Part shown: positions 5,108 to 46,128 of the stretch, in pieces
Numbering within the stretch: the stretch's first letter is position 1
How the letters are laid out: each line of letters starts with the position of its first letter
IMG/VR virus record: IMGVR_UViG_3300030110_003801
Span: 1 to 46,128 of that record
Length of the DNA: 46,128 bases
DNA from: a virus
Direction: 5' to 3' (one strand)
The notes under the pieces: generated by a model
What the model was told of the DNA's origin: nothing
The model's input: the letters and a program-made list of their open reading frames with translations, nothing else
The model's database searches: none
Made by a program: the position numbers and the translations under genes

Positions 5108-5416
5108 TTAAAAATGTATACCACTAGTATTACAAGGAATACTACTATCTAGCTCTCTAAACAACCTGCCTACCAAGCATCTAAGATCATCCTCTGTTAA
5201 TGTTTTTGCGTTTGTGTACGTGAACATGTCTAGAATGTTATTTTTTAAAATAACGTCTCCCCACTCAGTATCAGACTCTGAACCTAAATTATAGACCATC
5301 GCTAAAGCTAGTTTATTTAGCTTTAAGACAATATCACGTTTAACAGTTTTCGTGTTTGCTTCAGTCATTACTGAAACATTTTCCGGATCTAATAGATGTT
5401 GTTGAATCTGGCTCAT
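5108..5416 (-). CDS. Small tail-module protein, 102 aa
   Basis: I do not recognise this protein. It begins MSQIQQHLLDPEN and is predicted helical, with a central LKLNKLALAMVYNLGSE segment and a C-terminus rich in acidic and polar residues. I chose the ATG at 5414-5416 because it shares its A with the TAA of the 245-aa gene (TAATG), a typical translationally coupled junction. A longer reading from a TTG at 5422 would add two residues and has no support. It lies between two appendage genes, so it may be a tail adaptor or a fibre-assembly protein. Confidence 0.6.
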   Translation of the reverse strand: MSQIQQHLLDPENVSVMTEANTKTVKRDIVLKLNKLALAMVYNLGSESDTEWGDVILKNNILDMFTYTNAKTLTEDDLRCLVGRLFRELDSSIPCNTSGIHF

Positions 5417-6153
5417 TAACAATTACAAATTGATTTAGCTGCATTGACCAAATTGGTTGCCTCAGTAAAGTCTCCTGCATCACTGGCGTATCCTATACCA
5501 TCTATTAAGGTTTTAAGCTTAACTTGATTTAAGAATGATGTATTACCGCAAAGAAGGTCGTCATCACACGAATCTCCACTCACAGTACACCCTGCCTCTA
5601 ATGTCAGTCTTTCTAAACATTGATTAAGCTCTCTACATGTTAAAGAAAATGTAGCTGTCGCTTTATACTTAGAACTAAGGTCTTTTCTGGTTATTTCTTT
5701 CCAATACTCAGAACCAGACTCTGGAGTATTTGATGAAGGTGTTGTTTGTAGTGTCTGCCAAATTTTATTGTTGTAATAAACAGATTTTGGGCTAGCCGTG
5801 GTATGCGTGTAGCTGACAGACGAGTTATAAGTTGGTACAGAAAAAAGAGTCAAAACGTATACGCCATCTAAATCTGAAGAAGCTAACGTCCTGTTTAGAG
5901 TATTGTTTCTAGAAGTCCCTTGATCCCAAGCTGCATCTAAATTTCCTTGAGCATCGTAATCGTATGTTGAACCATCTGGAGAACTAATTTCTAACTGCCT
6001 ATAATCTGCAAAGTCTGCGTTTTCATGACCTGATTCATCTGAAGTAGTATAATTAGAATTATCCTCAAAAGTCAAAATTGAACAGTCCGTATCAATAGAT
6101 ACGTCTATTGTGTTTGTTGATGAATCGATTAATGTTGCTTGAAAGTTTGGCAT
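5416..6153 (-). CDS. Tail appendage protein, 245 aa
   Basis: The N-terminus (MPNFQATLIDSSTNTIDVSI) and the segment around DGVYVLTLFSVPTYNSS suggest a beta-sandwich. Residues about 120-150 contain SVYYNNKIWQTLQTT and a nearby SGSEYWKEI, which together look like the short carbohydrate-binding or baseplate-decorating module YxNxxWxxL...P....YW found in many phage tail proteins. The C-terminal 70 residues carry eight cysteines, including CTVSGDSCDDDLLCGN and a terminal CNC, which is unusual for a cytoplasmically assembled virion protein. It is the first gene after a TAnnTTTG element at 6170-6177, so it may start a separate tail-fibre transcript. The role in the tail is inferred from position. Confidence 0.65.
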   Translation of the reverse strand: MPNFQATLIDSSTNTIDVSIDTDCSILTFEDNSNYTTSDESGHENADFADYRQLEISSPDGSTYDYDAQGNLDAAWDQGTSRNNTLNRTLASSDLDGVYVLTLFSVPTYNSSVSYTHTTASPKSVYYNNKIWQTLQTTPSSNTPESGSEYWKEITRKDLSSKYKATATFSLTCRELNQCLERLTLEAGCTVSGDSCDDDLLCGNTSFLNQVKLKTLIDGIGYASDAGDFTEATNLVNAAKSICNC

Positions 6154-14652: not shown

Positions 14653-16887
14653 TTATATTGTTTTCTTCTTATTACCAGTATTGGTTTTGCTTTTGTTATT
14701 TTTCTCCTCTTTTGTTCCAGGCTGCTGCTTATATGTTCTATCGCTATTTCTGTTGTATTCAACATTAGCACCTTTAACTTCATTATCCAACATTGCTGCA
14801 GTTGCGTTATCTAAATTGTATACTATTTGTGTAACAGGAACCGTTGTGTTTGTACTCCATCCCGATTTAGTTACAGCTTCTTTTAAATGAGGAAGCTTCA
14901 TTGTAACTGACTGATATGTTATAATTATTTTAGGTATAGCGTTATCTATAAGGTTTGGATTTAAACGCACATCATCAGCAGTTAATAGTTTTGATTGCCT
15001 AGTTTCTTCATCAAACGTGTATAAAGCCATTTCGTATTTCGTAGCCAAACCTCTATTCCCATCACCAAACGCACCATTTGTTGGCGATAATTTTGCATTT
15101 CTCAAGTCAGCTACGGTAAGATTTCCTACCTCTAACCCTGTCAACACATTATACATAACCTTGTCACTTTCACTGAAGTCAGTTGGATGCTTAGTTTTAA
15201 GATGTTTTAGATAATCCTGTGGTGCAACTTGATCTCCATTTAAATCATAAGTTACATCAGTTACTCTTTTGTCATATGACTTATTATCTCCTGCATTTTT
15301 TATTTCCCCTTTTAATTCTCCATACTTACCACCACCTACAAGGTTTCCTTGATCATCTATTTTAAGATCCATTTCAAGACCATAGTGATTTGCAAAAGCA
15401 TTAGCAACACCAATTCTGTATTTATTGATTTGAGCGGTAGTCATACCTGTTGCTGGTATATTCGCTTTATTTGGTGCAGCTTTTGCAATTTCATTCTTCA
15501 ATGAAGACACCTGTTCAGGGTTTGCTGAAAGGTCTGCCTTATCAGTAAATATTGTGAAAGCTTGTTTTCTATTGCGATTATTGCTATTACTGCTTGAGTC
15601 TTCTCTAGCTTTTACAAAGTTTACGTTTGTTTTAATTTCTGCACCTATAAGACCGTAAACATAATCTAAAGCATATTGTCTCCATTCTTTTTTCTCTTGA
15701 GCGTTAGTACCAACATAGAAATTGTTTTGCTTTAAAACAGCATCAACAACTTGCTCTACTCTTCCGTCTTTATAGAATTTTTTAGTAGCACTTACAACCT
15801 TATCGTGTGTTTTTGAATGGTAAACTTCATCGTATGCAGCTATTAAGTCCGCATTACTTTCTGGCTCTTTAAATATACCGTTTATCATAGGCACAATATC
15901 AGCTTTAATATTGTCCACTACTTTTGTATCAAGTACATTTGTCATGTTATCATAAGCGACAAGATTAGAAGACGTTTCAAACCATTCCTTTCTTCCTTTT
16001 TTAGATAGTAACTTATCAATATCAAATTGACCTTCTTTGATTCTCATAGCAGACTGTATTACTACAGGTGGATAAAAACCTTCAGATTTTTTCATACCTT
16101 TTAAAACTGCATCCGCTCTCTTGTCTGCGTCTTTTTGCTCTCTTGACAGCCTTTTCATTTGTCGCATATCTGAACGATACTTAAGAGCTAAAGGATTGCT
16201 TACGTCAGCTAAAACTTCGAATTTCCAATTTGTCTTTTCCCCATATTCCTGAAGAAGGTCATCCATCTTTTCATCAAAACCTTTTTGGAATTGTTGTGCT
16301 GTGTCTATGTCTAATAAGTTTAAAACTTTTTTTCTAATCTTACTTCTTTTTGCGGCAGCTTTTTGTTGTGATTTGTTTCTTTGTGCTATAAGCCCTAAAG
16401 GAAGTAAGTTACCCTCACCAACAAAAATGTCCACATTACCCACTACTTTACCTTGGTAGCTTCCTACTTTTATTGGTCTATCGTAATTCGGGAACAATTC
16501 TCTTCGTGTTGCGTCTGCAGCAAAACTACCCCGTGCTGTATCTCTTCCAGGTTGCCTTCCATATATCTCCGCATACCTTCTAGCTTCATCTATTCTTTCT
16601 GGAGTGTAAGTGTCTAAATCAACTTCATCTTTTGTGATAGGTTCATTAACTATGTCACTAGCATCAACATCTGCCTCAACGCCTGGACTTTCTCCGTCTT
16701 GCATTTCATCTATTACTTCCTTTGGTATTTCGGTCTGCTCAACATTATTTACGCTATTAAGTATACCATCCCTTTCTTGATCCAAAAAAGATTCTGTTTC
16801 ATCAGTGACAAAAGTGTTAGTGTTGTTAAGTGCAGCTTTTTGCACACTTTGTACAATTTTGTCTACGTTTGCGTTTTTTTTATCCAT
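14653..16887 (-). CDS. Probable virion cargo/internal protein, 744 aa
   Basis: I do not recognise a family by name. The protein is highly charged, with an acidic N-terminal 100 residues, a basic segment near 185-210 (QQKAAAKRSKIRKKVL), long helical stretches to about 400, and a Lys/Asn-rich tail (EEKNNKSKTNTGNKKKTI). It contains no signal peptide or membrane segment. It is 2 bp upstream of the 2805-aa gene and 12 bp downstream of the 253-aa gene, and the three form one block directly after the muzzle gene. In crAss-like phages this location encodes proteins packed in the capsid and ejected with DNA, so a cargo role is the best inference. A tail-sheath or baseplate role is less likely given the charge pattern. 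Confidence 0.65.
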   Translation of the reverse strand: MDKKNANVDKIVQSVQKAALNNTNTFVTDETESFLDQERDGILNSVNNVEQTEIPKEVIDEMQDGESPGVEADVDASDIVNEPITKDEVDLDTYTPERIDEARRYAEIYGRQPGRDTARGSFAADATRRELFPNYDRPIKVGSYQGKVVGNVDIFVGEGNLLPLGLIAQRNKSQQKAAAKRSKIRKKVLNLLDIDTAQQFQKGFDEKMDDLLQEYGEKTNWKFEVLADVSNPLALKYRSDMRQMKRLSREQKDADKRADAVLKGMKKSEGFYPPVVIQSAMRIKEGQFDIDKLLSKKGRKEWFETSSNLVAYDNMTNVLDTKVVDNIKADIVPMINGIFKEPESNADLIAAYDEVYHSKTHDKVVSATKKFYKDGRVEQVVDAVLKQNNFYVGTNAQEKKEWRQYALDYVYGLIGAEIKTNVNFVKAREDSSSNSNNRNRKQAFTIFTDKADLSANPEQVSSLKNEIAKAAPNKANIPATGMTTAQINKYRIGVANAFANHYGLEMDLKIDDQGNLVGGGKYGELKGEIKNAGDNKSYDKRVTDVTYDLNGDQVAPQDYLKHLKTKHPTDFSESDKVMYNVLTGLEVGNLTVADLRNAKLSPTNGAFGDGNRGLATKYEMALYTFDEETRQSKLLTADDVRLNPNLIDNAIPKIIITYQSVTMKLPHLKEAVTKSGWSTNTTVPVTQIVYNLDNATAAMLDNEVKGANVEYNRNSDRTYKQQPGTKEEKNNKSKTNTGNKKKTI

Positions 16888-17725: not shown

Positions 17726-20700
17726 TTATTTTAGCACTTTATATTGCACTTCTGTGTTTATCACCTTAAACTCTTCTTGCTTGTCATGTGTTATTTTGAA
17801 AAACAAAATTCTTCCTTGTACTCTTTTCCTGTCCGCTGTTTTTCTAGGCACATACTGCTCAAACCCGTGATAATCTTTTAACACCGCAGGTAACGCTACA
17901 GCGTCTAAGGTGCACACAGGGGTGTCTGCATCTAACTGAGCTTCTGTCTCATAAAAGTCTACCTTACTAGGTTTATTGTCGGAACTAACTCTAATTCTAG
18001 AAAACTCTTTATCGCTAGAAGTGTCTCCCCTTGTTGTTCCCGTAGTAGTTTTAGACTTTCCTTTACCTGTTGATGTATTTATAACGAAACCTTTGATGGA
18101 TTGGTTATATATTAAGTCTCCTGTATTTAGCACATAAGTCTCTCCATTACGCATTCCATAGAGTTCATTATCAAAAGAAAGATATCTATCAAAATCATGA
18201 GAGTTAGTGCCGAGCCAGTGATCATTCAAAGCACCAAACATTGGCGTTACACATTTTTGTTTCTTTACACCGCTAAACTCATTATATGTTGCAGTCATAT
18301 TGATTGATGTTACAACTTGGTTTTCATCTACAAAAACAGTTATATAATAAGCTTCACCAGGATTTACTACTGTTATCACATTAGTAAATGGGTTTTTAAA
18401 TCTAATAGAATTTCCCGTAGGGTCTACTACAACCTTAACAGCAGTAGTTAAAAGTTGTCCATTAAAACCACCAATAACTATAACCGAATCATCGGTAGGG
18501 GTTCCCGTAAGAAATAATGTGGGAGAAGCGGCTGATACTCCAAAGTATTGATTTCCTGAATTGGCAACATTGCCATTATAAGCAATATTTAAAACAGATC
18601 CTATAGCGTCTGAAGAAATGGGATTCCACTGTAAATAAGTAACACTAGACGTATCTACCTCTGTGTTATTTTCTTTATCGTTAAAAGAAATCCAATATTC
18701 ATTATGCAGAGTATTGTAGACACCTGTTAAATCCGTACTGTATCCTGTTCCAACTTTTTGCAAGAAATCTTTCCACAATCTACTGTGATATTTTTTTCTT
18801 CCAATATCTTCAAGTTGATTACCTGTAAGTCTATAAGCTGAATTGTAATTAGCAAAATAAATTGAAGAACCACTTTCTGCAGCTGTTCTCCACATTTCAT
18901 CGGACATACCGGTACGCTTGGTTAGCCATATTTGTTTTTGGACTCCTCTTGTGGCACTTTCTATAGCAGCTAACTGCGAGCCACTTACTTCGCTAATAAT
19001 TCTTTTATCGGTTAAACAAATAGCAATACCGCTATCAGTAAATGCAATAAGGTTGTTTCCTTTGCCGCTATCTGAATCAAATAAATACTTTATTTCACCT
19101 GTGTTATCAGACAAGTCAAAAACATTTAAAGCTGGAAAACTTCTTACACTCGGACTATCTTGTACGTTTACAGGCTTTTCTGCTGACCATATAATCCTAG
19201 TGCAGAACTTGCTTTGATCCGTAAACCCAACTTTAGGCTTGCTTGTATACAAAGTAAAATTATTGTATTGAGCGTAATCAATATTTGTCATTTGTGTAAA
19301 ACGGAAACCACCGTAATTCCAATACTTCACTTCATCTCCATACTCAGTCGTATAAGCGTCATGAGTTGTAACCGTAGGATTGTTGTCATTCCACTTGTTC
19401 GGCCTCTGTCTGTAGTGCGTTATCGGAAAGAATGTGTTTAAGGTTTCTCTAGGGGTAGATTCACCATAAAAATACGGTATACCATGTCTGGTTTCTGCCG
19501 TATACATTAGTAACCACTGTCTCATTCTTGACGGTTCTTGCCCTAGTATCTTATCATGCTTTAATGTCTCAACATTCTGTATATTATCAGACAACACGTC
19601 CAATCCTGACTTAACCATAAATATTCTTTTATTTACAGTTACTTTTCTATAAGGCATTCCAATATTGATTCTATGCTTGTTTGCGGCATCAATAGGACAA
19701 CCTGTGCTTTTGTACTTTAAATCGTATATAGGGTGAACACTTTCTCCTACATAAGTGTCTCCACCAAAAAATCTAATAGGTATTCTTTTGTCCCAATCGA
19801 CATATACTTTATGTCCTTTTTTCGGAATAAAATTATCGTCTGGATACAAAGATGTATTTACTCCCGAAGGCCAACCTCCTGTATCAAACTTTAATGCAAA
19901 TCGCCTATTATTATAGTCTGTGTGTTTGTATATACCGTAAACTCTAGTTGATGAGCCGTCTGTTGATTGGTAGTAGCCATTGTTCTGTATGTCTTGCAGT
20001 ATAGTGTTAATTTGTGACGCTGTTTTAAAAGTACAATTAATCCACTTTTTCTCGTTTCCTTGACTATCAATAACAGTAACAAATCTATCTAAATTATAAT
20101 ACTCAGCAGACTGAGTAGGCATTAGTGTTTCTGCTATTTGATTACCACTAGAGTCTTGTAAATCAGGTATACAATCTTCCCATCTTTCATCAACTAAGTT
20201 TGCTGTTATAGGATCTGTATCATCTAAACTAGCTGCCACTAAAGAGCGTACATGCTGTATTTGACCTGTTGGTATGTAATCTTGTATCTGAGGGTCTTCT
20301 ACAGAGTTAGCATTTCTTACAATAGAGCAAACATATACTGGCTCGTGCCAATTTCTTACTGCTTCGTCTTGAAAATCTAAAGAATACCCAGAGCCTAAAC
20401 CTCCTGAAGCGTAAACATCTTTATCTAAAGTAACTTCCCAATAGTGACCCCCTCTATCTCCTGCTGTAGTACCTGCACCTTTTATTACTTTTATATTGGT
20501 GATATTAAATAAATTTGAATTAGTTCCTGTTCCAAAAGCAGGAGGTATTGGCGAAGACTCTCTTCTCCATTCACCCCAAGAAACATATCTCTGTCCATCT
20601 GGACCAGGTATTCCCATGCTACTACTTTCCATTGGGTTGAATTCAGCAGAAACTTTATCTCTCATTAACCTAGCATAAGAAATCATATCAATACCAAAAG

Positions 20701-34434: not shown

Positions 34435-34980
34435 TTATTTTTCATTATAAGCAGCCACTGCATCCTTGATATTGTTATCAAAAAACATATCCACTTTCTG
34501 CTTCTTCTTGTAAATCGATCCCTTCCAAACAATAGAAGGGTTTACGTGATACGTCCTCCTGATGTTCTTCCCTGTTATCATAACAAAGTTCTTTTGGGCT
34601 AAACCATCAATTGCATCCTTGGCCGTGTTTACACCGATACCTATTCCTTTTGATAGCCCCCTCATTGTAATTCCTTTTACCAGGTTGTTGTAAGTCATTT
34701 TACCAATCAGATAAAAAAGTACCTTTGCTTCGCTTCCGGTTAATTCTTTAGCCATATCAGTAGAGCTTGCCTGGTAAGCCGTAACGTAATCCGGTTTGTA
34801 CCTTATTGCTTTTCTAATCTTCTGCAATACAAACTGTGCTTGTTCGTTGAGAACAGCTAGGACAGGTATAAACTCCCCTGTGTGTTTATCCATCACATAG
34901 ACGTGCTCTAATTGAACATTAGCATCAATGCGGTCACATTCATCCTTTATCGCTTGAAATACCTTTAGCTGTCTTTCCAT
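34435..34980 (-). CDS. RepL-like winged-helix protein; candidate small terminase or regulator, 181 aa
   Basis: The central part (about 75-150) looks like a winged helix: LTGSEAKVLFYLIGKMTYNN, then RGLSKGIGIGVNTAKDAIDG with recognition helix, and a wing ending RRTYHVNPSIVWKGS. The NP-x-x-x-K/W-K-G ending resembles the RepL family of plasmid/phage initiators and regulators. The C-terminus is basic then acidic. It is between the HNH and terminase genes, where phages often encode the small terminase, so DNA recognition for packaging is equally possible. The ATG overlaps the HNH gene by 41 bp, an unusually long overlap, but no better internal start exists. Confidence 0.6.
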   Translation of the reverse strand: MERQLKVFQAIKDECDRIDANVQLEHVYVMDKHTGEFIPVLAVLNEQAQFVLQKIRKAIRYKPDYVTAYQASSTDMAKELTGSEAKVLFYLIGKMTYNNLVKGITMRGLSKGIGIGVNTAKDAIDGLAQKNFVMITGKNIRRTYHVNPSIVWKGSIYKKKQKVDMFFDNNIKDAVAAYNEK

Positions 34981-35314
34981 TGGCCGTCTTGTTCTTTCTT
35001 AACTTCTCTAGAGATATTAAAATATTACGGTAGTATTCCATTTTAGCCTCATGGTCTTTATCCATCTCTCTTACCATAAACTTGATAATACCTTCGAAGT
35101 CCTTAACGGAGTGATCCTGTTTTAAGCTATTACATCTTTTACAGGAATATACTTTGTTGTCGTTAGATAGGATACCGCCTTTACTTTTTGGAATAATGTG
35201 GTCGGTAGTTCGATTGCCTTCCCATAATCTAGAGCCACAATAGAAGCACTCTTTATCATTACTCGGCAGCTTATTTCCGTAGCTTTTCCAGCTCTTACTT
35301 TTTTCTTTACCCAT
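34940..35314 (-). CDS. HNH endonuclease, 124 aa
   Basis: Zinc ligands C23-x2-C26 and C58-x2-C61 flank the catalytic D38-H39 and N51/N53 of an HNH fold (TTDHIIPKSKGGILSNDNKV). In many tailed phages an HNH protein encoded beside the large terminase helps cleave DNA during packaging. I place the start at the ATG at 35312-35314; a longer reading from a TTG at 35350 would be translated across the hairpin at 35325-35346. It is the first gene of the late minus-strand module. It may instead be a free-standing homing-type nuclease. Confidence 0.8.
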   Translation of the reverse strand: MGKEKSKSWKSYGNKLPSNDKECFYCGSRLWEGNRTTDHIIPKSKGGILSNDNKVYSCKRCNSLKQDHSVKDFEGIIKFMVREMDKDHEAKMEYYRNILISLEKLRKNKTANGKTAKGISSDKG

Positions 35315-35417: not shown

Positions 35418-35596
35418 GACAGTGACAAATTGTATTAATCTCAAATACGCTATTTAACCCTTAAATGCCTGACCATCAGTATAACTAATTATTTCCCCTA
35501 TATATCTATTTTCTCATACTAGTAAACCATGTCTACATTTATCCTTCGGAATTATGTATTATGGCATTACTAAAAAGCTAGCTGTGCTAACTAATA

Positions 35597-35632
35597 TTCT
35601 TTTCTCTCTTCTTCTCTCTTCTCTTCTCCTTT
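35597..35632 (+). repeat. Polypyrimidine tract, 36 nt
   Basis: This stretch has only C and T, mostly as TTCTCTC-type units. It touches the 11-bp repeat array. Such a strand-biased tract can melt or form triple-stranded structure and can bind single-strand proteins. No coding role is possible in frame with any gene. Confidence 0.8.
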
Positions 35633-35636
35633 GTAT

Positions 35637-35670
35637 TGCATCCGCATGGGGTATGCATTACATCTGCAAT
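35637..35670 (-). repeat. 11-bp repeat array A (minus-strand orientation)
   Basis: Read on the minus strand, units TGCAGATGTAA, TGCATACCCCA and TGCGGATGCAA lie head to tail with 11-bp spacing, and TGCA-nn-TGYA is the shared core. The middle unit is degenerate. It is 10 bp from array B and in opposite orientation to it. Confidence 0.65.
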
Positions 35671-35680
35671 GCGAAACTAA

Positions 35681-35724
35681 TGCACTTGTAATACATGTGT
35701 AATGCACTTGCAATGCATCTGCAT
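35681..35724 (+). repeat. 11-bp repeat array B (four tandem units)
   Basis: Four directly adjacent units read TGCACTTGTAA, TACATGTGTAA, TGCACTTGCAA and TGCATCTGCAT. Every unit contains a two-fold symmetric TGCA-nn-TGYA core, so a protein could bind one helical face repeatedly. The TAATGCACT junctions resemble a DnaA box (TTATNCACA) with two mismatches. The same units occur before the DnaA-like gene at 44368-44404. Confidence 0.8.
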
Positions 35725-36408: not shown

Positions 36409-36430
36409 ACAAATCAAATTAATAAACTCT

Positions 36431-36444
36431 AAAATTTATCAATC
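36431..36444 (+). promoter_or_regulatory. Start leader copy 1 (AAAATTTATCAATC-ATG)
   Basis: First of eight 14-nt leaders of the form AAAAYTTWTCAATC that abut the ATG. None resembles a Shine-Dalgarno sequence. Confidence 0.7.
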
Positions 36445-36828
36445 ATGTACACGAAAACGGAAATTATCAACAGATTAAAAAGAGGTGAAACCTTCTACAT
36501 GTTAAACCCGACTAAATCGGAATTCAGACACATTTCAGGCATCAAAATTGAATACGCTAAACATGGCCGAATGGAGGGAGAATTGACAAGTATCTACGCA
36601 ATAAGAAATAGCGAGATACAATACATGTTAGACCTAAGAGGAGACCAGATGAATATTGACAAAATCACCAATAAACAAATGATCTTGTACACGACAAACA
36701 TGTTTGGAGATAGCGAAACAACAAAAATAAACCTGGACAGAATCGTTTTTGTAACGGACGCGGAATACGTTCAAAACAAAATAGACGAGGAAAAAAGACA
36801 ATTTGATGAACTATTAAAAACTATTTAA
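36445..36828 (+). CDS. Early protein of unknown function, 127 aa
   Basis: I do not recognise the family. The protein is soluble and charged: an N-terminal helical start (TEIINRLKRGETFYMLNP), a mixed middle with GRMEGELTSIYAIRNS, and an acidic/basic helical C-terminus (NKIDEEKRQFDELLKTI). A pattern of alternating strands in 45-100 would fit a small alpha/beta domain. It is preceded by the conserved start leader and followed by a GGGCCC stem-loop, which places it in the early operon. Confidence 0.65.
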   Translation: MYTKTEIINRLKRGETFYMLNPTKSEFRHISGIKIEYAKHGRMEGELTSIYAIRNSEIQYMLDLRGDQMNIDKITNKQMILYTTNMFGDSETTKINLDRIVFVTDAEYVQNKIDEEKRQFDELLKTI

Positions 36829-36837
36829 CACTAAACA

Positions 36838-36873
36838 CCAGGGCCCGGCCATTGCATACCATCTGCTGGGCCC
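36838..36873 (+). repeat. Intercistronic GGGCCC stem-loop 1
   Basis: GGGCCC arms at 36841-36846 and 36868-36873 flank a 21-nt centre. The whole element (36837-36883) is 45 of 47 bases identical to 39221-39267. Its right arm is 40 nt before the next ATG, further than in the other copies. Confidence 0.75.
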
Positions 36874-36899
36874 CTTTAAAACTCAATTAATTAAACTCT

Positions 36900-36913
36900 A
36901 AAATTTATCAATC
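36900..36913 (+). promoter_or_regulatory. Start leader copy 2
   Basis: Identical to copy 1 and preceded by the same ATTAATTAAACTCT-type sequence, so the match extends upstream beyond the core. Confidence 0.7.
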
Positions 36914-37303
36914 ATGGCAAAGAAACAAATCACACAGGAATTAATCACAGCGGAATCAATCAACTACAAAGATGTTTTGCTGGTAAAGCGTAGATTAAAC
37001 GCAGGGACAGACACGGAAATTTTAAACGAGCAAATTTATATCGATTTAATCGATGGGGACGACGGAATCAAATACCTTAGAAACCTGCACAAATCACCCA
37101 CGGGGAAAATAAGAAAGAATAACCCGTTTGGAAACCGTGAAACCGAAATACTAGAAAATTTCACACATTTCGCCCTTGTGGGATTTATGAACCAGGGAAA
37201 CAGATACCACGACTATTATACGCCAATTTGGGCCGTGAATTCTGCAGATGGGGACACGTTCGAATACATACAGGAAGCAGGAACAATAAAAATAATTTCA
37301 TAA
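36914..37303 (+). CDS. Early protein of unknown function, 129 aa
   Basis: The protein begins MAKKQITQELITAESINYKD and has a likely beta-rich body (KYLRNLHKSPTGKIRKNNPF, NFTHFALVGFMNQGNRYHD) ending in DGDTFEYIQEAGTIKIIS. No catalytic or metal motif is obvious. Aromatic residues around 105-120 (YHDYYTPIWAVNSADG) may form a binding surface. A stem-loop lies directly before and after it. Unknown function in the early operon. Confidence 0.65.
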   Translation: MAKKQITQELITAESINYKDVLLVKRRLNAGTDTEILNEQIYIDLIDGDDGIKYLRNLHKSPTGKIRKNNPFGNRETEILENFTHFALVGFMNQGNRYHDYYTPIWAVNSADGDTFEYIQEAGTIKIIS

Positions 37304-38910: not shown

Positions 38911-38947
38911 ATAAGTAAAACTAAATACATATTTTTATCTAAACTTT

Positions 38948-38961
38948 AAAACTTATCAATC
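38948..38961 (+). promoter_or_regulatory. Start leader copy 5
   Basis: AAAACTTATCAATC directly before the ATG, preceded by AAACTTT, so a second ACTT lies just upstream. Confidence 0.7.
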
Positions 38962-39213
38962 ATGGCAAAGAAAGAAATAAACAGCTACAGAAAATGGAAA
39001 TTAATTATCATTTGCGAAAATGATGTTTACCAGGTAAAAGTAGATTTAGAAAAAATTTACGCCAAAACAGACCAGGAGGATGATTACGAATACATGTACG
39101 CAATACAGGAACAAATCGACAAACTATTAGACATGAAAAAAAACGAAAGGATAGCCTTTGAGTTTAATAGAAATGATAATTCAGAACCAGGATACATAAT
39201 AAGAACTAAATAA
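38962..39213 (+). CDS. Early acidic protein of unknown function, 83 aa
   Basis: The protein MAKKEINSYRKWKLIIICEN has a basic start, then VYQVKVDLEKIYAKT and an acidic stretch (DQEDDYEYMYAIQEQIDKLL). A strand-strand-helix order is likely. No signal peptide or Cys pair that would suggest metal binding. It has its own possible internal promoter and is followed by stem-loop 3. Unknown. Confidence 0.6.
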   Translation: MAKKEINSYRKWKLIIICENDVYQVKVDLEKIYAKTDQEDDYEYMYAIQEQIDKLLDMKKNERIAFEFNRNDNSEPGYIIRTK

Positions 39214-39221
39214 TAAACTAA

Positions 39222-39257
39222 CCAGGGCCCGGCCATTGCATACCATTTGCTGGGCCC
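39222..39257 (+). repeat. Intercistronic GGGCCC stem-loop 3
   Basis: Near copy of stem-loop 1 (two differences in 47). Arms at 39225-39230 and 39252-39257; the right arm ends 18 nt before the ATG at 39276 and is directly followed by start leader copy 6. Confidence 0.8.
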
Positions 39258-39261
39258 CTCT

Positions 39262-39275
39262 AAAACTTTTCAATC
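39262..39275 (+). promoter_or_regulatory. Start leader copy 6
   Basis: AAAACTTTTCAATC directly before the ATG and only 4 nt after stem-loop 3, the one place where the two elements are joined tightly. Confidence 0.7.
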
Positions 39276-40648: not shown

Positions 40649-41107
40649 ATGGGAACAAGATCATTAACAACTTTTATACAAACGTATAAATCGGAGAAAA
40701 CAGGACAAAGAAAAACAAACAAAATTGTCGCAATGTACAGGCAGTTCGACGGATACCCGGAAGGCCATGGGCTACAACTTTGTGAATACTTATCGGGAGG
40801 AGACCTAGTGAACGGAATCGGACTAGGAAAAAAGGAACGAATGATATTCAACGGAATGGGATGTTTGGCCGCTTCTGTAGTTAGTCACTTTAAAGACGGG
40901 CCAGGAAATATATACCTAGAAGCCCCCCGCAAAATGGACTGGGAAAATTACGAATACAAAGTAATTGGAGACTTTGATACACACGAGCTGACAGTTCATG
41001 TAGTGACACGGGGATACATGAGCAAAAAAGGTGACTATGTAAACAAAAATAAAACTTTGTTTAAAGGATCACCGCAGCAGGTAATCGAATGGATAAACAA
41101 AAAGTAA
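40649..41107 (+). CDS. Conserved MGTRSLT-type phage protein, 152 aa
   Basis: The N-terminus MGTRSLTTFIQTYKS, then VAMYRQFDGYPEGHGLQL, marks a small family found in phages and plasmids (MGTR..T.....Y.Q.DGYP.GHG). The rest includes SHFKDGPGNIYLEAPRKMDW and YEYKVIGDFDTHELTVHVVT, a likely beta domain. Asp and His in the FDGYPEGHG motif are candidates for metal binding. The function is not known to me. The end of this gene, with its stop and stem-loop 5, is part of an exact 37-nt repeat shared with the end of the next gene. Confidence 0.7.
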   Translation: MGTRSLTTFIQTYKSEKTGQRKTNKIVAMYRQFDGYPEGHGLQLCEYLSGGDLVNGIGLGKKERMIFNGMGCLAASVVSHFKDGPGNIYLEAPRKMDWENYEYKVIGDFDTHELTVHVVTRGYMSKKGDYVNKNKTLFKGSPQQVIEWINKK

Positions 41108-41131
41108 ACTAACCAGGGGCCACCTGGGCCC
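41095..41131 (+). repeat. 37-nt direct repeat spanning gene end and stem-loop 5
   Basis: Identical to 41365-41401. It holds the last codons (NKK), the TAA, the spacer AACTAACC and stem-loop 5 (GGGGCC at 41116-41121 with GGCCCC at 41127-41132). The right arm ends 17 nt before the ATG at 41150. Confidence 0.85.
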
Positions 41132-41149: not shown

Positions 41150-41377
41150 ATGAGCAAAGTAAGAAGACACCACGGAGAATATTTAGAAAATATAGCTTTT
41201 AATAAAACTAAATTATACAACGAAAATACAGAAGCTACAAAGCAGCAAGAAGATGTAAACGTATGTAAAGATGTATTAATAGCTTATATGGGCTTAGATG
41301 AGTTTAAAAAGCTATCTAAGGATAATTTAAACATGATAATAGGAGCAATGCAAGAGCATGCACAAAACAAAAAGTAA
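41150..41377 (+). CDS. Early protein of unknown function, 75 aa
   Basis: The protein MSKVRRHHGEYLENIAFNKT is basic at the start, then NTEATKQQEDVNVCKDVLIA and a helical end (EFKKLSKDNLNMIIGAMQEH). It looks like a small helical protein. Its 3' end (QNKK and stop) is shared with that of the upstream gene as an exact nucleotide repeat, although the rest of the two genes is unrelated. Preceded by stem-loop 5. No family recognised. Confidence 0.6.
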   Translation: MSKVRRHHGEYLENIAFNKTKLYNENTEATKQQEDVNVCKDVLIAYMGLDEFKKLSKDNLNMIIGAMQEHAQNKK

Positions 41378-41401
41378 ACTAACCAGGGGCCACCTGGGCC
41401 C
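41365..41401 (+). repeat. 37-nt direct repeat, second copy, with stem-loop 6
   Basis: Same sequence as 41095-41131, with arms GGGCC (41387-41391) and GGCCC (41397-41401). It ends 15 nt before the ATG at 41417; the flanking sequence then differs (ATAAAACTTAAGATC). Confidence 0.85.
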
Positions 41402-44364: not shown

Positions 44365-44373
44365 TTATGCACA
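44365..44373 (+). promoter_or_regulatory. Consensus DnaA box TTATGCACA
   Basis: TTATGCACA is a perfect TTATNCACA match. It overlaps the first 11-bp unit of the array and lies 48 bp before the ATG of the DnaA-like gene. The host DnaA or the phage DnaA-like product could bind it. Confidence 0.65.
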
Positions 44374-44404
44374 TGCATTGCACATGCATTGCGTATGTAA
44401 TGCA
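44368..44404 (+). repeat. 11-bp repeat array C upstream of the DnaA-like gene
   Basis: Three head-to-tail units TGCACATGCAT, TGCACATGCAT and TGCGTATGTAA, then TGCA. Core and spacing are the same as in arrays A and B at 35637-35724. The array ends 17 bp before the ATG and so can act as an operator for this gene. Confidence 0.85.
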
Positions 44405-44420
44405 AAGAAGATAAAAGTAA

Positions 44421-45107
44421 ATGAAAGTAAAAGATAAGATAAAAGCTTTGATATTTTCAATATCGTATAGATCTAGGTCTAGGATAAATGACTATGAAAT
44501 GAGCAAGATTATAATAAAATCTGTGTCAATAGCTACAGGAATAAACCCTGAACTACTTCATAAGAAAACAAGAAAAAGTGAAATAGTTCTAGCTAGGCAC
44601 TGTGTATTCTATCACATAAGAAACAGAACCAAGTTAAGCCTGGCAAAAATAGGAAGGATATACGACAAGGATCATGCTACAGTTCTTAACAGTTGCAGAG
44701 TATATAACAATATGTTTGAAACCAATAGAATGCATAAGGAATTTATGACAAACGTAAGACATATAGACCTGCATGAGAGAATAGTAGACATAATAGAAAA
44801 CTACATTGGTAATAATGATTACCCGGATGGTGAAGGGAAGTTTCCTGAAACAATATCAAATTGGGATAAATTCAAAACCAAGTATAATGAAGCTGAATAT
44901 ATTAAAAAGAAAAATCAGAACACAATGAAAAAACCAATTGTAGATTGGCAAATCAAAAAAGAACCAAGAGATAATTTCTCTAGGTTTGTAGGTCTCAAAA
45001 CCCTTTCAAGGGAAGAGCAGAGGCAGGTAAGAAACATAGTAGCATTTCCATTTTTCATGGCTTTAGCTGCTATTATTTATTCATCAATTAATTTAATGTT
45101 ATCATGA
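44421..45107 (+). CDS. DnaA domain IV-like DNA-binding protein with C-terminal membrane segment, 228 aa
   Basis: Residues about 26-115 align with domain IV of bacterial DnaA, which recognises the DnaA box. The order is KSVSIATGINPELLHKKTRK, then ARHCVFYHIRNRTKLSLAKI and GRIYDKDHATVLNSC. The signature DHATV (84-88) corresponds to DHTTV of E. coli DnaA, with the first Thr changed to Ala. No AAA+ ATPase domain is present, so it cannot act as a complete initiator. The linker 116-204 is acidic then basic. Residues about 205-227 (VAFPFFMALAAIIYSSINLM) form one hydrophobic helix at the very end, as in a tail-anchored protein. A DnaA box and 11-bp repeats lie upstream, and XRE and Rad52-like genes follow (4-bp overlap with the former). 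Origin binding, self-control or membrane tethering are inferred. Confidence 0.8.
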   Translation: MKVKDKIKALIFSISYRSRSRINDYEMSKIIIKSVSIATGINPELLHKKTRKSEIVLARHCVFYHIRNRTKLSLAKIGRIYDKDHATVLNSCRVYNNMFETNRMHKEFMTNVRHIDLHERIVDIIENYIGNNDYPDGEGKFPETISNWDKFKTKYNEAEYIKKKNQNTMKKPIVDWQIKKEPRDNFSRFVGLKTLSREEQRQVRNIVAFPFFMALAAIIYSSINLMLS

Positions 45108-45331
45108 GAGAGCTTTTAAAAGATGTCCTTATTGAGAAAGGAAGGAGTCAGGTTTGGATAATGCAACAGCTGGCCACGAAAGGTATAGAGAGAAGTACAT
45201 CGACACTATCTCAGTACTGTAACGGATACAAAAAACCAAGAGACAGATATGTTTTATTGGTGCTTGCCGAACTTTTAGAGTGCGGTATAGAAAGAATTGA
45301 AAATTGTTTTATCAACGCTAAATCAGAGTAA
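45104..45331 (+). CDS. XRE-type helix-turn-helix protein, 75 aa
   Basis: The whole protein is one domain: MRELLKDVLIEKGRSQVWIM, QQLATKGIERSTSTLSQYCN (helix-turn-helix with recognition helix STLSQYCNG) and RDRYVLLVLAELLECGIERI. The pattern S-x-V-W-I-M-Q-Q-L...S-T-L-S-Q-Y-C-N-G-x-K-x-P fits Cro/CI-type or XRE regulators. Its ATG overlaps the DnaA-like gene stop (ATGA), so both are made together. It may regulate the replication genes or bind the 11-bp repeats. Confidence 0.75.
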   Translation: MRELLKDVLIEKGRSQVWIMQQLATKGIERSTSTLSQYCNGYKKPRDRYVLLVLAELLECGIERIENCFINAKSE

Positions 45332-45333
45332 TT

Positions 45334-46128
45334 ATGGAGCAAAATAGCTTACAAATCGTACCAGAAGGGTATGTAATTGACAGAGAAACAAACACATGTT
45401 ACCCAAAGGGAACAGGTTTTGGAGGAAAACACACGGTGTTGCCTAGAGAATACCGTGAACTTCTTTCACAGCCAATACCGCCTGGCATGATTAGTACTCA
45501 CCCAACTAAGAAGTACTTGTCTGTTATCAAAGCAATTGCGGTTGTGGAAAGAATGAATGATGTTTTTGGAATTGCTGGATGGGATCTGGAACATGAGATT
45601 GTTAAGGAGACCGTAAATGTTATCGAGCAAACCCAATGGGATAATGCCAAAAGGCAGAAAGTGGTAATCGGTAAAAAAGAAACGCCATACATCTTAATGA
45701 AGGGAAGAATGTATATCAAAAAGTTTGATTTATACACGCCTTACCAATATGGTGGTCACGAGACCGACGGTACAGGAACCGAACCTGCGGATGGCTTTAA
45801 GTCGGCAGCTACTGATATACAATCTAAATGTGGGTCGTATCTTGAAATAGGTATTCAAGTATTTAAAGGTCAACCGACATCCAATGTTGCTAATGTATCA
45901 AAGCAGGATACTCAAGAAGCAATGGATCAGGGTGTAAAAAACTTGACAGCTAAGTCAGAATCCGTTTCTAAAACTGATGGAAGTAATGCCACTAAGCAAG
46001 AGGTAGATGCTGCGAAAAAAAGATCTGAAGCTGCGAAAAAAGCTGCTGCTACAAGAAAGAAAAACAAAGAAGCAAAAGATGTTGAGTCAAATGAAAACAT
46101 TGAAGATGCTAATGTCGTAGTTGATGAA
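45334..46128 (+). CDS. Rad52-like single-strand annealing protein (cut by window end)
   Basis: The frame runs 265 codons with no stop to the window end. Residues about 56-90 read HPTKKYLSVIKAIAVVERMN, DVFGIAGWDLEHEIV, and 140-172 GGHETDGTGTEPADGFKSAA, TDIQSKCGSYLEIG. This pattern (FG..GW.......... and G......AD..K.A.TDA.K....LGIG) fits the Rad52/22 family of phage annealing proteins, which pair complementary single strands in recombination and repair. After 180 the protein becomes a Lys/Ala/Glu-rich disordered tail, as in many phage annealing proteins. The ATG is 2 bp after the upstream stop. Neighbours suggest a replication-recombination operon. Confidence 0.75.
   Translation, partial: MEQNSLQIVPEGYVIDRETNTCYPKGTGFGGKHTVLPREYRELLSQPIPPGMISTHPTKKYLSVIKAIAVVERMNDVFGIAGWDLEHEIVKETVNVIEQTQWDNAKRQKVVIGKKETPYILMKGRMYIKKFDLYTPYQYGGHETDGTGTEPADGFKSAATDIQSKCGSYLEIGIQVFKGQPTSNVANVSKQDTQEAMDQGVKNLTAKSESVSKTDGSNATKQEVDAAKKRSEAAKKAAATRKKNKEAKDVESNENIEDANVVVDE

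Follow-up and report, generated by a model that had tools for sequence, protein, structure and literature searches.

Tandem 11-bp iterons with adjoining pentamer tracts as putative origin copies in a phage of about 64 kb

Repeats in a divergent intergenic region that recur just before a gene for a DnaA-like protein raise the question of whether they mark a replication origin and, if so, which protein binds them. We addressed this question in a window of 46,128 bases of viral DNA. As the initial annotation had described, 11-bp units with a TGCA-nn-TGYA core are present at 35637-35724, and the same units are found again at 44367-44404, directly before the DnaA-like gene. That annotation had, however, distinguished two opposed arrays, A and B, at the first site. 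We find there one array, hereafter A/B, of eight units in a single minus-strand register (unit starts at 35637, 35648, 35659, 35670, 35681, 35692, 35703 and 35714), i.e. 8 x 11 = 88 bp without a break, in which the fifth unit in reading order, TTAGTTTCGCA at 35670, is degenerate. The unit, WTGCAnnTGYA, is quasi-palindromic and nearly its own reverse complement, which is why one array could be read in two orientations. The other array, C, comprises three iterons and a half unit, ATGCA, on the plus strand. Direct repeats in a fixed register, as expected of an iteron origin, are present in both arrays, with eight units in A/B and three in C.

The window corresponds to bases 1-46128 of an IMG/VR record of 128,733 bases, and is directly followed by ten N. 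When the record was compared with itself, 1-615 matched 63647-64261 and 127008-128733 matched 61886-63614, both at 86%. A separate contig of 63,652 bases (G001) matched 1-46128 at 100% and 46139-64261 at 99.5%, the final 615 bases of the latter match being the duplicated stretch. Together, these matches indicate that the record is two related phages joined, phage A (about 1-63646, ~64 kb) and a relative, phage B. Either misassembly or a genuine cointegrate may have brought them together; G001 is phage A on its own. No near-identical relative was found among 50,697 phage records, a search of the window against Rfam gave no match at gathering scores, and a tRNA search found none. The record's sole matches to Lin1244_N and DnaA_C lie in phage A. 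Phage A also carries, at 50754-53368 of the record (L004:4626-7240), genes for a P-II regulator, an ammonium transporter and a BBP2 porin in a row; this stretch, possibly an auxiliary metabolic cassette, shares 77% identity with positions 95544-98167 in phage B.

A whole-genome search with a weight matrix, which the initial annotation had proposed, gave a divided answer. The matrix was built from ten units, and was thus trained on these arrays, and the whole record was searched. Single matches of at least 8.5 bits numbered 113 in the record; eight Markov controls gave 71-111, which puts isolated units at the chance level. Pairs in tandem at a spacing of exactly 11 bp, each member scoring at least 6 bits, numbered 14 (both strands counted) versus 0-1 in the controls, and are nearly confined to the two arrays, which hold 12 of them, the other two forming one weak pair at 47718. 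Phage B showed no tandem TGCA array in this search. Under a looser rule that asked for at least 6 of the 8 core bases, runs reached four units in A/B and three in C; among 100 Markov windows, the maximum was two in 94 and three in 6. By run length alone, A/B is therefore beyond chance, while C on its own is within it. The annotation had also pointed to cumulative skew. The detrended skew minimum of phage A, at 36562, is less than 1 kb from A/B and agrees with an origin there, but gene orientation flips near the same position, so the skew decides nothing.

Each array is followed, on the strand that reads it as ATGCAnnTGCA, by a purine-rich tract with a 5-nt period. Directly after A/B (35592..35636, minus strand), the tract reads AAAGG AGAAG AGAAG AGAGA AGAAG AGAGA AAAGA and has a lag-5 z-score of 2.9 versus shuffles. 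Its counterpart directly after C (44404..44448, plus strand) extends across the start codon of the gene for the DnaA-like protein, with z-scores, on the same basis, of 2.1 at lag 5 and 2.9 at lag 10. When all 40-nt stretches of the window were scanned, the 23 highest lag-5 values all fell at 35588-35605 or 44402-44406; across all 128 kb of the record, the top value is shared with two further places. These tracts are candidate DNA unwinding elements.

The DnaA box has the consensus TTWTNCACA. That the repeat unit is not itself such a box, as originally stated, holds for A/B, which contains none, but a perfect TTATGCACA at 44365-44373 overlaps the first unit of array C. DnaA boxes as the true repeat unit were considered and rejected: the 14 TTWTNCACA sites of phage A are scattered, and in three relatives the arrays are free of overlap with such sites. 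Nor is there the cluster of boxes seen in oriC-like origins, the two arrays having one box at C and none in A/B.

The DnaA-like protein itself (44421..45107, plus strand; 228 aa) matches DnaA domain IV only (Bac_DnaA_C, PF08299, E 1.1e-16). No other Pfam family was found in it, so that it lacks the combination of AAA+ domain and domain IV of a full-length DnaA, and among 50,697 phage records it has two weak matches only. Downstream on the same strand are genes for a small XRE-type helix-turn-helix protein (45104..45331; PF01381 below cut-off, PHROG regulators) and a Rad52/22-like annealing protein that the end of the window truncates (45334..46128; PF04098, 23.3 bits versus a cut-off of 20.3). 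Near A/B, the minus strand encodes a RepL-like winged-helix protein (34435..34980; PF05732, E 4.7e-6) and, between it and the array, an HNH endonuclease-like protein (34940..35314; PF14279, E 9e-12). Short direct repeats, up to 37/37 identical, occur within or close to the intergenic gaps of the early genes in the window (36417-36447, 36885-36916, 38940-38978, 36812-36883, 39197-39267, 41095-41131 and 41365-41401), and are perhaps shared promoters or leaders.

At 0.7 kb past the window end, phage A carries a gene for a Lin1244_N protein (46863-47558; PF14297, 50.6 bits versus a cut-off of 25, E 3.4e-13), adjoined by that of a Toprim primase, possibly a primase-helicase (47560-49398). A structure model of the Lin1244 protein was obtained with a pLDDT of 85.8 and a pTM of 0.55. 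The best VIA-align rows were Nse1/3/4 and CRP winged helices, at Z 7.6 and below, the top row having an rmsd of 3.2 over 74 residues, a score at which no more than a similar arrangement may be shared. With Foldseek, no structure matched at E <= 0.001, and a sequence search of solved structures gave nothing relevant. The VIA-align matches listed include no RepA_N or DnaD structures, which decides nothing. In Pfam scans, each covering ten proteins, at E <= 1 and E <= 0.05, Lin1244_N and RepL were found and RepA_N (PF06970) was not.

Both array positions are kept in a diverged relative, G018 (L225), whose proteins are 65% (terminase-like), 54% (HNH), 37% (Lin1244) and 31% (RepL-like) identical to those of phage A. 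An array with an AAAGT tract lies there on the minus strand beside the HNH and RepL-like genes, in the place and orientation of A/B, and a second array with tract precedes the DnaA_C gene, as at C. A third, at about 20139-20165, precedes the same probable tail gene as one of the two arrays of G087 (L226), which stand before DnaA_C and, at about 22959, before this gene. The gene, labelled as tail from position and sequence, without a family search, is a homologue of window 5416-6153, where no array was seen in phage A. In G026 (L224), an array lies about 2.4 kb before the DnaA_C gene. Outside the phage A family, G002 has modules of array plus tract at 16300 and 27280, with the same ACAAG repeats, one inside a winged-helix gene and the other just before a probable tail gene; its array matching the pattern used below is 11 kb from its replication genes.

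How widely the arrays occur, and with which genes, can be seen from a search of IMG/VR with the exact two-and-a-half-unit pattern TGCANNTGYAWTGCANNTGYAWTGCA, which found 42 stretches, whereas the reversed pattern, used as a control, found 0. A stricter form of the pattern found 17 stretches of bacterial contigs, and the 59 loci from both searches form 34 clusters. Lag-5 z-scores of at least 3 were observed in 7 of 68 array flanks versus 1 of 596 control pieces. Many of the arrays are located within an open reading frame, shortly after an N-terminal domain that resembles DUF4373 or DUF1376. We compared the array records with 43 control records, taken from 80 listed, picked by length and unmatched for host or GC. 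Lin1244_N (PF14297) was present in 14/42 versus 0/43 controls, DUF1376 in 14/42 (8 over cut-off) versus 1/43, and DnaA_C in 10/42 versus 1/43. The Lin1244_N and DUF1376 records are disjoint sets, and the remaining 14/42 match neither.

We also approached the module from the protein side. Lin1244_N relatives, 554 of which were confirmed in one scan, were ranked by likeness to the phage A protein, and the best 80, representing 67 clusters, were examined; a few of them had already been seen via the array search. The scanning alignment consisted mostly of array-bearing proteins, and the scan pattern was derived from the N-terminal domain. A strong tract was defined as a 40-nt window with a lag-5 identity of at least 0.74, a threshold set once, without tuning. 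Such a tract lies at +300..+800 of the gene in 41/67 clusters versus 0/446 control blocks, with a median start at +425, just after the Lin1244 domain; the other 26 clusters are below 0.74, several of them with weaker tracts visible by eye. In 100-bp bins, tracts were found in 36/67 clusters at +400, 4 at +300, 1 at +500 and 2 at +700, and in none in any other bin from -1500 to +2000, while lags of 3, 4, 6, 7 and 12 gave 0 or 1 per bin. The in-gene tract is 81% purine. The 75 nt before it peak at lag 11 (0.416 versus 0.253 in a control stretch), and the half-sites upstream are TGCA in 27/41 and TGCG, TAGC, TGCC, TGGC or TACA in the others, except for one left unassigned. When codons were resampled synonymously, much of the periodicity was lost: lag-5 identity was 0.684 observed versus 0.481 in the null, and all 40 of 40 testable genes were above their null. 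Since, in addition, five is not a multiple of three, selection acts on the DNA, not on the peptide.

Within the stretches fetched, DnaA_C, sought with a five-seed profile, was found at 5/80 Lin1244 loci (L224, L225, L226, L300 and L302), and at 0/41 of the cluster representatives with an in-gene module (+/-4 kb fetched). A longer iteron pattern matched 24/24 records that had been chosen for visible TGCA units, versus one match in all for the reversed control. In 17 of these 24 chosen records, counted by hand, two iteron clusters lie about 200-255 bp apart in the Lin1244 gene. Viewed by eye, L273, L277 and L285 have arrays towards the 3' end of their Lin1244 genes, accompanied by apparent 4-nt repeats in the other orientation. 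The Lin1244-like initiator of Porphyromonas phage 005b, annotated as a replication initiation protein, has TACA-type repeats and an AAAGAT-like run in its gene; it has no TGCA units there and was left out of the counts of module bearers.

Taken together, we consider it likely that A/B and C are copies, duplicated and moved from their original place, of an iteron origin whose initiator is the Lin1244-type protein and not the DnaA-like one. The iteron origin suggested by the initial annotation is thus supported, and extended by the in-gene modules of many unrelated phages and by the conservation of both positions in G018, whereas the DnaA-like protein, there the candidate initiator, has no DnaA_C counterpart in the +/-4 kb fetched around the 41 module-bearing representatives. 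We take Lin1244 as the presumptive binder because it is the common factor; in phage A the link is made by homology, because Lin1244 genes of the phage A type (L223-L226), its own included, are without the in-gene module. The mechanism that we propose is modelled on lambda O, RepA_N plasmids and RctB: a winged-helix initiator of the Lin1244 type, encoded by the phage itself, would bind the iterons cooperatively, the DNA would melt at the pentamers alongside, and helicase loading would ensue, with recruitment of the Toprim primase (which may be a primase-helicase) from the neighbouring gene. Whereas the Lin1244 gene houses the module in most relatives, the module would have moved out of it in phage A and close kin, to the front of DnaA_C or of a tail gene or to the divergent gap between early and late genes. 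With 8.7 kb between them, the two copies in phage A might both be origins, or one might be an origin and the other a regulatory site. More tentatively, and with clear doubt, the 5-nt repeats might be a single-stranded register read by the Lin1244-type initiator or by the helicase, a five-step counterpart of the DnaA-trio common to a large class of phages, the extra copies at late operons of the window's family then being added origins or a means of tying late expression to replication.

Other explanations account for part of these observations. Were the domain IV-only DnaA-like protein the iteron-binding initiator, with array C as its autoregulatory origin, one would understand why C extends into the beginning of its gene, why an array precedes DnaA_C in G018 and G087 too, why DnaA_C is enriched in the array records, and why a perfect DnaA box overlaps C. 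We nevertheless regard this as improbable, given that the 41 representatives, with no DnaA_C in the +/-4 kb fetched, carry the same kind of iterons and pentamers and that the arrays of three relatives bear no DnaA box. The RepL-like protein is a still poorer candidate for the initiator. Its gene is about 0.65 kb from A/B, its PF05732 match is over the cut-off and a counterpart stands beside the G018 array, but a tblastn search of the 80 Lin1244 loci and of parts of G087 and G026, partial stretches that carry the module, gave no counterpart, making this role very unlikely.

It is also unlikely that the arrays are operators, and not origins, through which the XRE, RepL-like or Lin1244 protein couples early and late operons. 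Copies do lie just upstream of genes, i.e. DnaA_C in phage A, G018 and G087 and tail genes in G002, G018 and G087, and A/B sits in a divergent gap between minus-strand and plus-strand genes. Yet most relatives carry the module inside the coding sequence of the candidate initiator, together with a 5-nt tract that no operator needs. A dual role, origin plus operator, may apply. The extra copies before tail genes, which fit a regulatory role as well, count against the origin reading, as do the 14/42 array records with neither Lin1244_N nor DUF1376, the lack of an in-gene module in Lin1244 genes of the phage A type, the 11 kb between the pattern-matching array of G002 and its replication genes, the middling structural matches of the initiator model, and, at array C, the chance-level run of three and the lag-5 z-score of 2.1. 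Repeats without function, due to chance or codon composition, could explain the run length of C, reached in 6/100 random windows, but are next to inconceivable in view of the pattern matches (42 versus 0), the position kept in G018 and the in-gene tracts (41/67 versus 0/446).

If the preferred reading, a relocated iteron origin with a Lin1244-type initiator, is true, sequence alone predicts the site of the origin and its initiator for a large group of phages. The low-complexity linker of Lin1244/DUF4373 proteins (AMQMQCK...KESKVKESK) would then be explained as a by-product of an origin inside the gene, and the 5-nt tract provides a testable idea of how such origins open. In the literature searched, which is thin in subscription journals, we found no description of this module. 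The module of array and pentamers would be a variant of iteron origins and not a new principle.

Four known systems, as far as the accounts cited describe them, share parts of this arrangement. The lambda origin consists of O iterons and an AT-rich tract inside gene O (PMC7466680); in most relatives, direct iterons followed by a tract that may melt easily likewise lie inside the candidate initiator gene. Unlike lambda, the phage module has 11-bp TGCA units and a purine tract of 5-nt period, in phage A it is duplicated and outside the initiator gene, and no lambda O family was found in the Pfam scans. In RepA_N replicons of the pSK41 type, the winged-helix N-terminal domain of the initiator binds Rep boxes that lie in the middle of the gene encoding it, and the linker that the boxes encode is dispensable in RepA_N plasmids (PMC5703833). 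Putative sites for a predicted winged-helix initiator inside its own gene occur in the phages too, but the phage protein belongs to PF14297 (Lin1244_N), the iteron is another one, and a pentamer tract and, in phage A, two relocated copies are added. The ori2 of Vibrio cholerae chromosome 2 has binding sites beside an unwinding element with 5-mers, (G/A)ATCA, recognised by RctB (PMC10797057), and resembles the module, in which putative binding sites lie beside a tract of repeated 5-mers; the 5-mer here is a different one, and ori2 belongs to a chromosome, not a phage. Finally, the DnaA-trio of bacterial oriC is a tract of short-step repeats beside initiator boxes at the opening site (PMC10797057), with a step of 3 versus 5 here, and array A/B has no DnaA boxes.
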